NCBI RefSeq assembly: GCF_000423405.1
Contig: NZ_KE384014.1
Coordinates: forward strand, 101,529 to 141,926
Origin: Mesonia mobilis DSM 19841
Lineage (GTDB): Bacteria; Bacteroidota; Bacteroidia; Flavobacteriales; Flavobacteriaceae
DNA: 40,398 nt
Direction: 5' to 3'
The notes under the pieces are model-generated. The model did not search any database. It was not told where the DNA came from and worked only from the letters and a program-made list of their open reading frames with translations. The position numbers and the translations under genes were made by a program. The first letter of the stretch is position 1. Every line of letters starts with the position of its first letter. Below are positions 1-9,524 of this stretch, one piece after another.

Positions 1-35
1 ATCTGGTATGCTGTATTTTAAATGTATAATTAGAA

Positions 36-63
36 ATAAAAAACTAGGCTTTTTAGTAAGCCT
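36..63 (-). terminator. Terminator of the cas operon
   Basis: A 6-bp stem (AGGCTT at 46-51 pairing with AAGCCT at 58-63) with a 6-nt loop. Read leftward it is followed by AGTTTTTTA, a fair intrinsic terminator placed 43 nt after the cas2 stop. It suggests that cas transcription ends here and that any CRISPR array further left has its own promoter. Confidence 0.6.
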
Positions 64-105
64 TTTGCTTTGCTTGATAAGTTATTTTTAATGCTATTTT
101 TTCAA

Positions 106-453
106 TTAAAAAAGTTCCAATTGCTGGTGAGGTACTTCAGGCTCTATTTCTTTTTTTCCGTGAAAAAGTTCGATCATACCAAATTGCTTGTCGGTTATTT
201 GCATCACGGCTACTTTTCCTTTTTTGGGTAGATTGTTTTTTGTTCGTTTAATATGTACTGCTGCATTTTCACGGCTAGCACAGAATCTACTGTAAATAGA
301 AAATTGAAACATTCCAAAACCATCATCTAGAAGTTGTTTGCGAAATCTAGTGGCAGCTTTCCGCTCGATTCTGGTTTCGGTTGGTAAATCGAAAAATACA
401 AGTACCCACATGCTTCTGTATTGATTTAGTCTTGAAAAACGTGAATTTTCCAT
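106..453 (-). CDS. cas2: CRISPR-associated endonuclease Cas2 (type II-C)
   Basis: Cas2 forms the central dimer of the Cas1-Cas2 spacer integrase. The protein has the ferredoxin-like Cas2 start [13 protein letters not shown], with the conserved Asp of FFDLP, and the SREN and KQFGMIE blocks typical of type II-C Cas2 in Bacteroidota; it ends in LELF. I place the start at the ATG at 453 ([14 protein letters not shown]), giving 115 aa. An in-frame GTG at 480 would add nine residues that relatives normally lack. It is the last gene of the leftward cas9-cas1-cas2 operon, 85 bp after cas1, and is followed by a hairpin terminator. Family assignment is very secure; the start is less so. Confidence 0.95.
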
Positions 454-538
454 AGTATTAATCCATTTTATGGTTTTCACTTGAGTTTTTATTTAACTCT
501 ATTCTTTTTACAACTAACGTATTTATATTCTTAAAGCT

Positions 539-1435
539 TTATTGAAAATCCGGGTATAATATTTTTCGGCTACTCCCATAAAAACATTCATATAAACTAT
601 TGGTAGTACGGCTAACGGCATTCATTAACAGGCTTTTCTTACCATCAATAGCTACATCCATAGCAGGTATCTGTAAAAGTTCTACTTTAATTTTCGTTGT
701 TAATTCTTCTAGATTACAACCACTTTGCACCAGATCATTAACTAAAGCATCTACATAAGGTCGGTAAGGTTCCATCACGTCATCGGCCAAAGAAAATGGA
801 TTGTATTTATTGTGATGAAAAATACCTACCGAAGGAAGCATCCCGCTACTTACAATGGCACGGGCTGTTATCGCTCGTAAAATGGCATATCCGTAATTTA
901 ATAAATTGTTTGGGGGTACGCCCTTTTGATTTCTGCTGAATCCTTCTAAGTCAAATAGATTTTGAAAGTAATGAGCCGCAGCAACGGCTTCATGATTTTG
1001 CGTGTCCCCACTTTTAACTTCTGTTGCCCACCGCTCTAGTTTAAGGCTATATTTGCCTAAACGTTTAAGATGCATTGCTTGATTATTTATTTTTGCCATA
1101 ACGGTTTGTTGCCACAACTGCTTTCTAAGTGGAACACTCGCATCTAATTGATGTCTATAGCGTACCGTTTGTTCAGTATGACCTACCAAAGGCTGCAAAA
1201 AAGAGCAGGGGAGGTGTTGCTTGTCGCAAGTAATAACGGCAGTTTTATTTTGTACTAGTTTCATAAGTAACCCATTGGTGAGGGTTATTTGCGGATTTTC
1301 TAATACTACAAAGCCTAAATCTTCTATAGGAATTGTTTTATCTTCTTTTTCTTCTTCGGGGAAATTTACCACCAATTGTTCATTTTTGGTACTTAGATAA
1401 GCTGGATTGCTGAAAAATAAGGTACGTTTAATCAT
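539..1435 (-). CDS. cas1: CRISPR-associated endonuclease Cas1 (type II-C)
   Basis: Cas1 is the metal-dependent integrase that inserts new spacers at the leader end of a CRISPR array together with Cas2. At 298 aa it has normal type II length and opens with the type II signature MIKRTLFFSNPAYLS. The alpha-helical C-terminal part contains the usual LLNYGYAILRA block (the Asn/Tyr-rich core around residue 180), the active-site His region SVGIFHHNKYNPFSLADDVMEPYRP (split here by type: GIFHHN then LADD.MEPYRP) and a final YECFYG. It starts 10 bp after cas9 stops, so the two are surely co-transcribed. Nothing looks damaged, which implies that the adaptation module is intact. Confidence 0.96.
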   Translation of the reverse strand: MIKRTLFFSNPAYLSTKNEQLVVNFPEEEKEDKTIPIEDLGFVVLENPQITLTNGLLMKLVQNKTAVITCDKQHLPCSFLQPLVGHTEQTVRYRHQLDASVPLRKQLWQQTVMAKINNQAMHLKRLGKYSLKLERWATEVKSGDTQNHEAVAAAHYFQNLFDLEGFSRNQKGVPPNNLLNYGYAILRAITARAIVSSGMLPSVGIFHHNKYNPFSLADDVMEPYRPYVDALVNDLVQSGCNLEELTTKIKVELLQIPAMDVAIDGKKSLLMNAVSRTTNSLYECFYGSSRKILYPDFQ

Positions 1436-1445
1436 TTTAAAAATT

Positions 1446-8009: not shown

Positions 8010-9230
8010 TTATATGGCTTTTAATCTTTCTTCTAAATTATCCATATCCATCCCTATTTTTGATTGCAATACTCTAGCATAAACTTGTGTAGTAGATAGT
8101 TTTGAATGACCTAATAATTTTGAAACTGTTTCTATAGGAACACCATTATTTAAAGTTACCGTCGTGGCAAAAGTATGTCTGGCAGAGTGAAATGATATGC
8201 TTTTAGGAATTCCTACAAGCTTACATATTTCCTTGATATAATTATTTATTTTTTGATTGGAATACACAGGAAGTAATTTACCTTCTTTTATGGAATCACT
8301 TTCATATTGCTGTAAAATTTGTTTAGCTTTAGGTAACAAAGGAATTTTTACATATTCTTCGCTTTTCGCCCTTTGGGTAAAAATCCAATCTTTGCCATTC
8401 ATTCCTTTAGTTAAATGACTTTTTGTGAGGTTTTTCACATCAATGTAAGAAAGTCCGGTGTAGCAAGAGAAAACAAAAATATCTCTAACTATCTGGTGAA
8501 CTCTTTTTTCTAAATATGAAGTCTCTAATTTTTCTAGTTCTTGTTGATTAAGAAAAACTCTATCAAACTTTTGAAACTTTAATTTAAATTGAAAAAATGG
8601 ATCTTTATCCAACCATTCTAATTTTAAGGCTAGATTAGTTAATTTCTTTAGTCTTTCTAAATGTTTCATTACTCCATTATTAGATAAGGGTTGACTTTTT
8701 TTCAAATACTTACCGGAGTTTAGATAATGCTCAAAATCTACGATGAACTTATAATCTAATTCAGATAAATAAATATCTGAGGTGTGTTTTTTCTCATTAA
8801 GAAAATTTTTCAAATATTTTTCTGTAGAGTAATAATTTTTAAGCGTACCCCATTTTAATTTAGATTGCATTTTATCGTTGTGGTAAGTAACAAGTTCTAT
8901 TAAACTTTTATGATCGTTATCTTCTCCTAAAAAAGTAGCTTTAATTTTTTTGGCTGTAATAAGCTCATTTCTAGATTTCAAATCACTGTAGCAATTAAAT
9001 AATTGCGCTTTACATTGATCTAAATAATTATTAATTTGCTTACTCTCGAAACTCCTCCCTTTTACCTGTTGAGAGCGCTTATCCCATTTTTCAATAGGAG
9101 CCATTTGTTTTAAACTAATTTCGACTCTCTTTTTCTCTACGGTTATCCTTGCATATAAAGGAGCATTAGAGTCTTTTCTTTTGGACTTATTGATCCAAAA
9201 ATGAATACTGAATGTTTTGATAGTCTGCAT
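8010..9230 (-). CDS. Tyrosine recombinase / site-specific integrase (IntDOT-like)
   Basis: A 406-aa integrase with an N-terminal arm-binding domain typical of Bacteroidota mobile elements (PLYARITVEKKRVEIS, residues 24-40), a SAM-like core-binding domain at about 115-215, and a catalytic domain at about 225-395. Visible active-site elements are Lys in RAKSEEYVKIPL, HSARHTF (HxxR), LLGHSKLSTTQVYA (His and the nucleophile Tyr). The first catalytic Arg is replaced by Ser in TGLSYID, as in the CTnDOT integrase IntDOT and many relatives, so this is not damage. Its start lies 219 bp from the 3' end of tRNA-Pro, with direct repeats between, the usual layout of an element integrated in a tRNA gene. 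Confidence 0.93.
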   Translation of the reverse strand: MQTIKTFSIHFWINKSKRKDSNAPLYARITVEKKRVEISLKQMAPIEKWDKRSQQVKGRSFESKQINNYLDQCKAQLFNCYSDLKSRNELITAKKIKATFLGEDNDHKSLIELVTYHNDKMQSKLKWGTLKNYYSTEKYLKNFLNEKKHTSDIYLSELDYKFIVDFEHYLNSGKYLKKSQPLSNNGVMKHLERLKKLTNLALKLEWLDKDPFFQFKLKFQKFDRVFLNQQELEKLETSYLEKRVHQIVRDIFVFSCYTGLSYIDVKNLTKSHLTKGMNGKDWIFTQRAKSEEYVKIPLLPKAKQILQQYESDSIKEGKLLPVYSNQKINNYIKEICKLVGIPKSISFHSARHTFATTVTLNNGVPIETVSKLLGHSKLSTTQVYARVLQSKIGMDMDNLEERLKAI

Positions 9231-9315
9231 ATACTTTCGTTTTAAAGATGAATAGAACGAAAGTCAAATCAATGTGCCTAAAACGGCATTATAAATCGAA
9301 AGATAATATTTTTTT

Positions 9316-9351
9316 AGGTAACCGAATAGGTAACCGTATAGGTCACCTGAA
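9316..9351. repeat. Three tandem 12-bp repeats, probable integrase arm sites
   Basis: AGGTAACCGAAT (9316-9327), AGGTAACCGTAT (9328-9339) and AGGTCACCTGAA (9340-9351) follow each other without gaps. Their place between the integrase start and the tRNA 3' end is where arm-type integrase or excisionase sites are expected. They may also overlap the integrase promoter and so couple expression to binding. Confidence 0.55.
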
Positions 9352-9361
9352 TTTTGATAAT

Positions 9362-9414
9362 AAAAAAAATCTTTTGACTTCAATTTTTATTAAAATACTG
9401 AAAATCAAAAGATT
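9362..9414 (-). terminator. Terminator of the tRNA-Pro transcript
   Basis: A 10-bp perfect stem (AATCTTTTGA at 9368-9377 with TCAAAAGATT at 9405-9414). Read leftward it is followed by eight T residues, 36 nt beyond the tRNA 3' end. Confidence 0.7.
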
Positions 9415-9449
9415 GTAATTTGTTCTGTTTGTTAATTTTGTATTCTTTG

Positions 9450-9524
9450 TCGGGATGAGAGGATTCGAACCTCCGATCTCGCGCCCCCCAGACGCGCACT
9501 TTAACCGGACTAAGCTACATCCCG
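9450..9524 (-). tRNA. tRNA-Pro, anticodon GGG
   Basis: The 75-nt cloverleaf is readable on the minus strand. The acceptor stem CGGGATG/CATCCCG is perfect. The D arm is GCTT...AAGT and the anticodon stem CGCGT/GCGCG encloses loop CTGGGGG with anticodon GGG. The T arm GGAGG-TTCGAAT-CCTCT follows and the discriminator is A. CCA is not encoded. A TATATTCG-like -7 box lies just upstream (9539-9546). Its 3' end faces the integrase gene, so it is the likely integration site of the element to the left; I found no second copy of the 3' end in this window. Confidence 0.95.

Follow-up and report, generated by a model that had tools for sequence, protein, structure and literature searches.

A type II-C CRISPR-Cas locus of Mesonia mobilis as the probable cargo of a 12.9-kb element integrated at tRNA-Pro

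The 40,398-nucleotide stretch of Mesonia mobilis DSM 19841 analyzed here (the window; positions 101529-141926 of contig C8 in the 59-contig host assembly, G000) carries a type II-C locus of clustered regularly interspaced short palindromic repeats (CRISPR) and cas genes near a tRNA-Pro(GGG) gene. This locus is very probably the cargo of a 12.9-kb element, integrated at the 3' end of the tRNA gene by the element's own IntCTnDOT-type recombinase. Comparison of genome sequences provided both boundaries of the presumed element, an empty site, a copy in a diverged species whose identity far exceeds that of two chromosomal loci, and the tRNA-Pro address of the integrase family. An earlier reading of the window (the original prediction) had placed an integrase gene next to the 3' end of tRNA-Pro(GGG), three tandem 12-bp repeats between the two, cas9-cas1-cas2 with a trans-activating CRISPR RNA (tracrRNA) to the left, and ordinary chromosome to the right of the tRNA, and had proposed that the Cas9 locus moves as cargo of an integrative element. 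The gene order, tRNA, repeats and cas genes were confirmed by the analysis, and the proposal is supported. The features concerned are as follows, in window coordinates.

1-9448, no strand: the part of the integrated element that lies within the window, from the direct repeats and the empty site in genome G010
106-480, minus strand: cas2 (type II), from family searches
539-1435, minus strand: cas1 (type II), from family searches
1446-5561, minus strand: cas9 (type II-C), 1371 amino acids, from family searches
5655-5745 (about), plus strand: probable tracrRNA, an anti-repeat followed by a hairpin and T-run, from duplex energy, with hairpin and T-run found by reading
8010-9230, minus strand: IntCTnDOT-type tyrosine integrase, 406 amino acids, from a domain search; its family lies near tRNA-Pro
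9316-9351, no strand: three tandem 12-bp repeats, proposed arm-type integrase sites of the right side, from sequence reading and a shuffle test
9449-9461, no strand: right copy of the 13-bp core GTCGGGATGAGAG at the tRNA-Pro 3' end, from a repeat search
9449-9524, minus strand: tRNA-Pro(GGG), the integration target, from a tRNA call (9450-9524 in Rfam)
9650-10900, plus strand: MFS transporter gene, the chromosomal right neighbour outside the element, named by similarity

The boundaries were identified as two copies of a 13-bp direct repeat, GTCGGGATGAGAG, on the same strand. The right copy (C8:110977-110989, window 9449-9461) is the 3' end of the tRNA-Pro(GGG) gene, and the left copy (C8:98118-98130) lies outside the window. 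These were the only exact copies in the 116 kb of contig C8 searched, for which base composition predicts 0.0004 hits per strand. The two cores are 12,859 bp apart, start to start. From the position of the left core, the element thus begins 3,411 bases to the left of window base 1, in agreement with the earlier placement of the left boundary beyond that base. A second copy of the tRNA 3' end had also been predicted to the left; this was found as the 13-bp core, but not as the 20-mer that had been proposed as boundary repeat. The 20-mer was rejected in this role, having no second copy on contig C8 at up to 3 mismatches, because the left core copy diverges after 13 bases. Genome-wide, it matched the tRNA itself and, with 3 mismatches, one site on another contig, within a second tRNA-Pro-like match.

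The comparison that had been suggested, with a relative lacking this cas9 at tRNA-Pro, gave a continuous empty site in G010, a genome of the same genus, where both flanks are contiguous through one copy of the core (G010:C34). Over 807 aligned positions that end with the left core, the left flank of G010 is 92.6% identical to that of M. mobilis; the right flank, containing the tRNA-Pro and MFS genes, is 89.6% identical over 2,822 aligned positions from the core onward. The entire 12.9 kb, including the CRISPR array and the cas genes, is missing at this site, and the G010 genome has no match to this Cas9. Farther left the G010 DNA differs and partly reads N; the aligned flank is unaffected. The MFS gene to the right of the tRNA was matched in all 15 other genomes of the genus, though not always adjoining tRNA-Pro, and in two of them (G003 and G005) the same tRNA-Pro beside the MFS gene is occupied by other integrases of the family.

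A second copy of the element is present, in two parts, in Mesonia aquimarina MCCC 1A11700 (G008), of the same genus. Contig C25 carries the left end, which starts at the same core and agrees at 291 of 291 aligned bases, and the cas part, 97.3% identical over 5,922 positions; beyond the left core the C25 DNA is unrelated. Beside this left end are merR-crt genes, which in the window genome are on another contig. The integrase part, on contig C9, adjoins tRNA-Pro and the same MFS gene and is 94.3% identical over 2,419 positions. One match ends within the gene for an XRE-type protein and the other within the gene for a 285-amino-acid protein (both described below). Since the G008 copy is split over two contigs, the cas genes there appear to be cut off from the integrase. 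Of the chromosomal loci compared between the two species, the MFS gene (1,147 positions) is 72.5% and a carotenoid locus (2,567 positions) 72.6% identical. An element identity of 94-97%, against about 72.5% at these two loci, points to recent horizontal transfer of the element followed by breakage in G008; immunity by Cas9 seems to have travelled as one package between species. Vertical descent, which the original prediction had set against mobility, is untenable, because the element occurs in only 2 of 16 genus genomes and its identity is far above that of the two chromosomal loci. A Cas9 search of these 16 genomes gave any match in five and this lineage in G000 and G008 only; the integrase at 98% identity or more was likewise confined to these two, the next best being 58%. 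An insertion at a secondary site was rejected as the origin of the G008 copy: its left end is exact, the opposite end stops within the XRE gene, and a different contig has the integrase half, next to tRNA-Pro. The split may have arisen by later rearrangement or by two insertions.

The integrase contains Arm-DNA-bind_5 (PF17293), SAM-like (PF13102) and Phage_integrase (PF00589) domains. Its first catalytic Arg is replaced by Ser (TGLSY), and the H-x-x-R and Tyr boxes are present. This combination of arm-binding, SAM-like core-binding and catalytic domains with a replaced Arg I is that of the IntCTnDOT subgroup, for which the available part of PMC8138268 describes a first catalytic Arg that is weakly conserved or replaced. 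Matches in the PDB were XerA, XerD and IntI4 chains and covered the C-terminal part only. The reading frame is intact in the window genome and 98% identical in G008. Two further related integrases were observed in the window genome, at G000:C1:500959-502167 (46%) and G000:C17:272-1444 (36%).

Members of this integrase family were found in 110 of 397 genomes of the bacterial family (E<=1e-100, own genome counted). To locate them relative to tRNA genes, 27 relatives were taken from the top-ranked genomes of other genera, all at loci new to the analysis, and all 27 were tested. For 22 of them the distance between the start of the aligned part and a tRNA-Pro 3' end was 211-290 bp (13 GGG, 9 UGG), with no other tRNA nearer. 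Another 17 relatives, examined earlier and selected in part for a known nearby tRNA, gave 16 cases beside tRNA-Pro, at distances of 207-253 bp (12 cases) or 354-1,952 bp (the others). The family is common in Flavobacteriaceae and, judging from the location of its genes, specific for tRNA-Pro. For two relatives a second core delimits a putative element, exact in G032 (9.3 kb) and with one mismatch in G033 (13.9 kb). Cargo devoted to defence alone was rejected for these two relatives: the ORFs (open reading frames) of their elements, labelled by reading and with no family search, appear to be mostly regulators, metabolic enzymes and unknown proteins.

The three tandem 12-bp repeats between integrase and tRNA have a period-12 score above those of all 400 shuffles by base pairs (p=0.002). 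Two more 12-bp repeats, in the same direction and phase, lie 74 bp from the first base of the left core (C8:98192-98215). The G032 and G033 elements have, by eye, comparable repeats close to each end. Of 16 integrase-tRNA gaps scored against shuffled sequence, 12, that of the window included, showed period-12 repeats at p<=0.05. Because of this layout and the arm-binding domain of the integrase, the 12-bp repeats are probable binding sites of the integrase N-terminal domain. The longest exact direct match between the element ends, 16 bases, lies within the 12-bp arm repeat. No terminal inverted repeat was found between the ends, the longest inverted match being internal and of 14 bases, with shuffles reaching 15. 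In two other genomes the arm repeat is expanded to a longer tandem array between integrase and tRNA-Pro (L217, G012:C19, and L219, G001:C12); period scores were obtained for both and the sequence was inspected for G012.

Cas9, Cas1, Cas2, tracrRNA and repeats constitute, as far as family searches and predicted pairing indicate, a complete type II-C set. The tracrRNA:repeat duplex is predicted at -34.6 kcal/mol, against a mean of -15.6 (standard deviation 3.3, minimum -26.5) for 300 single-base shuffles. Neither csn2 nor cas4 was found among the six proteins searched. CRISPR repeats of about 46 bp are readable at the left end of the element, and most of the array reads N in the window genome; the G008 copy of the array has 55 repeats and 54 spacers. 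The G008 spacers had no convincing match in 50,697 phage records (best E 0.4) or, own loci aside, among 253 other sequences, where a single 18-base match was seen. A casposon, in which Cas1 serves as the integrase and the ends are terminal inverted repeats, was rejected: this element has a tyrosine integrase, direct repeats at its ends, no terminal inverted repeat, and a Cas1 that scores best as type II Cas1.

This Cas9 was found in 21 of the 397 genomes (E<=1e-300, own genome counted). Related Cas9 loci were scanned for integrases (80 loci, two of them from G008 and the window's own left out; 30 of the 80 are at least 24 kb). An integrase was detected at only 7; the hidden Markov model used had been built from this family plus one Aquimarina integrase, and other integrases may have escaped it. 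A general link of this Cas9 lineage with integrases was thus rejected. The 73 loci with no detected integrase would agree with a different origin, in which an old chromosomal cas locus lies beside an unrelated integrase remnant and the true element is smaller and excludes cas9; so would the location of the G008 cas half away from the integrase half. However, the empty site in G010 lacks cas genes and integrase together, which refutes such an origin unless G010 is misassembled there. In addition, the left core with its arm repeats is on the far side of the CRISPR array, to which it is still joined in G008. We consider a chance neighbourhood of this kind very improbable.

Some Cas9 loci of other genomes have features of their own. 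In a second cas9 locus of G008, a 204-amino-acid ORF between cas9 and cas1 (G008:C6:22467-23081) resembles, by reading, a REP-type (Y1) transposase. Aquimarina muelleri DSM 19832 (L123:8182-15461; G060:C15:103908) offers a second case, in which tRNA-Pro(GGG) is followed by a different tyrosine integrase and a cas9 of 61% identity together with cas1-cas2; the tRNA 3' end plus terminator recurs as an exact 81-bp copy on another contig, where no tRNA was found. In Pseudozobellia thermophila (L195:854-928 and 3674) a 20-bp repeat of the tRNA-Asp 3' end sequence is near another cas9 of the lineage.

Relaxase, conjugation, type IV secretion, replication, capsid and packaging genes were all absent among the six proteins searched, a set that did not include short antisense ORFs and ORFs of less than 60 amino acids. 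This bears on a further idea, that the locus is a phage satellite or one piece of a larger conjugative element and relies on transfer or packaging genes of its own. Targeting of tRNA genes is common for satellites and would suit such an origin. So would the occurrence of IntCTnDOT-type integrases on integrative and conjugative elements (ICEs) and mobilizable elements, as stated in the same part of PMC8138268. On the other hand, both ends are defined and only 12.9 kb apart and, within the scope just given, the relaxase, replication, capsid and packaging proteins expected of such an origin were not seen. This origin is improbable, if less so than a chance neighbourhood.

Under the reading that we prefer, of a mobile element with the CRISPR-Cas locus as cargo, the N-terminal domain of the integrase would bind the 12-bp arm repeats near both ends, and strand exchange would take place within the 13-bp core common to the element and the tRNA gene. 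After insertion the core would supply the last bases of the tRNA, so that the tRNA gene would stay whole. The cargo would comprise the XRE gene, tracrRNA, cas9, cas1, cas2 and the array, which adjoins the left end, so that machinery and spacer memory would move together. Excision is putative, and transfer would presumably proceed through a helper, a phage or DNA uptake, given that no relaxase or conjugation gene was found among the proteins searched. The host is probably a marine bacterium. It is quite possible, though a shade short of probable, that the element is a minimal, self-contained mobile cassette of adaptive immunity, in which a tRNA-Pro integrase is combined with a whole type II-C system whose array is at the extreme end, genes and spacers being inherited together by new hosts, and that the integrase family is a general shuttle for about 9-14 kb of cargo across Flavobacteriaceae, turned here into a vehicle of immunity.

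Several observations weigh against the preferred reading of a mobile element, in addition to the scarcity of integrases at related Cas9 loci. Five of the 27 integrase relatives have no tRNA of any kind within 1.5 kb. A matching second core was found in only 2 of the 16 relative regions scanned (up to 40 kb); other core-like hits, with one mismatch in G022 and two in G036, G033, G007 and G003, and shorter off-core matches in G002, G022, G009 and G011, were read as chance. The period-12 signal was not significant in 4 of the 16 gaps (G036, G032, G003 and G013). Joined element ends were found in none of the 16 genus genome assemblies, and the left-end sequence was absent from the viral contigs searched. 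Some of these data would fit a locus that arrived as a mobile element and is now a fixed island, with an integrase that no longer excises and cas genes that persist as ordinary chromosomal immunity. The failure to find joined ends agrees with this, as do the lack of transfer genes among the proteins searched and the stranded cargo of G008, with its cas and integrase halves on different contigs. In addition, in-frame stops in two family integrases (G009:C4:182995-184206 and G032:C7:205959-207179) suggest that those elements are decayed and fixed. Against a fixed island, the frame of the integrase is intact here at its full 406 amino acids and is closely conserved in G008, and both cores and the arm repeats are present. 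Fixation is rather unlikely, yet the likeliest of the alternatives considered.

Among close relatives, type II-C systems are gained and lost, usually without a visible vehicle. In this case both ends, the empty site and the broken copy of a second species are all available, which allows the passage from a mobile cassette to a stranded chromosomal locus to be traced. The element is small enough to be tested whole in a laboratory host, and other cargo can be sought in genomes by the sequence address that the integrase family provides (tRNA-Pro, 13-bp core, 12-bp arm sites).

Known systems were compared on the basis of those parts of the cited papers that were available. CampyICE1 (PMC8743540), a Campylobacter ICE of 70-129 kb located at tRNA-Met, resembles the Mesonia element in having a type II-C Cas9, arrays, a tracrRNA and an integrase on an integrative element beside a tRNA gene. 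It has conjugation genes and a sole cas9 without cas1 or cas2, whereas the Mesonia element is 12.9 kb long, is at tRNA-Pro and has complete cas9-cas1-cas2 and no conjugation genes among the proteins searched. The Vibrionaceae islands (PMC6360697; 25-85 kb) carry CRISPR types I-E, I-F, II-B and III, the type II-B islands being located at tRNA genes. They share with the Mesonia element an integrase, attachment (att) repeats, strains without the island and complete cas sets as cargo, but they are larger and of other CRISPR types; excision of the type I-E island GI-24 was shown by nested polymerase chain reaction, whereas that of the Mesonia element is putative. The IntCTnDOT subgroup (PMC8138268) shares the three domains, the missing first catalytic Arg and the occurrence in Bacteroidota, but the Mesonia integrase represents a tRNA-Pro-specific branch, with cargo and size unlike those of the CTnDOT conjugative element. 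Elizabethkingia anophelis (PMC4961963) has a similar type II-C cas9-cas1-cas2 with 47-bp repeats and patchy presence, but the CRISPR locus is given without placement on an element in the part available. A literature search that covered few subscription journals gave no Mesonia or Flavobacteriaceae element of this kind in titles or abstract openings among the matches listed. Cas9 on integrative elements has been published (CampyICE1, the Vibrionaceae islands), and the Mesonia element is therefore a compact variant and not a new kind. The concept is known; the new parts are the compact complete form and the tRNA-Pro integrase family.

Two further genes lie between the CRISPR-Cas genes and the integrase.

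5815-6228, minus strand: XRE-type helix-turn-helix protein, from a domain search; probably part of the cas9 module and not of the integrase module
6466-7323, plus strand: 285-amino-acid protein of unknown family, from family, PDB and model searches

The original prediction called these an XRE repressor and a HEPN protein. The XRE-type protein was confirmed as such, but its association seems to be with cas9 and not with the integrase. XRE homologues were found at 3 of the 80 Cas9 loci: in G008:C6, in L170 (1.2 kb upstream of cas9) and in L136 (8.5 kb away). The G008:C6 locus has a second Cas9 of 85% identity and, upstream of it in the same order, an XRE gene of 65% identity; no full-length integrase was seen there in the ORFs read, and a weak partial integrase match is about 10 kb away (G008:C6:32201). 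Because homologues occur at other Cas9 loci, including one in the same order, we assign the XRE gene with moderate confidence to the CRISPR module, with which it seems to travel.

The HEPN label could not be upheld. The 285-amino-acid protein had no match in Pfam, NCBIfam or PADLOC, no Pfam family recurred among the 10 members of its alignment (at most 1 of 10), and nothing below E 1.8 was found among PDB sequences. A single-sequence model was too poor to judge (predicted local distance difference test score 42.5). The HEPN motif is R-x4-6-H. R225 of this protein is conserved almost throughout; as for the His seven residues further on, visual inspection of nine relatives showed it in none, and seven of them have Asn at that position. 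At least 5 of 17 non-self places of homologues are within 10 kb of a family integrase, among the integrases listed, in a hand comparison with no chance control, and for this reason the protein is assigned tentatively to the integrase module. The gap between its gene and the integrase contains a perfect 17-bp inverted repeat and a strong hairpin (window 7453-7532 and 7879-7939), and the hairpin at 7879-7939 is conserved in G008:C9.

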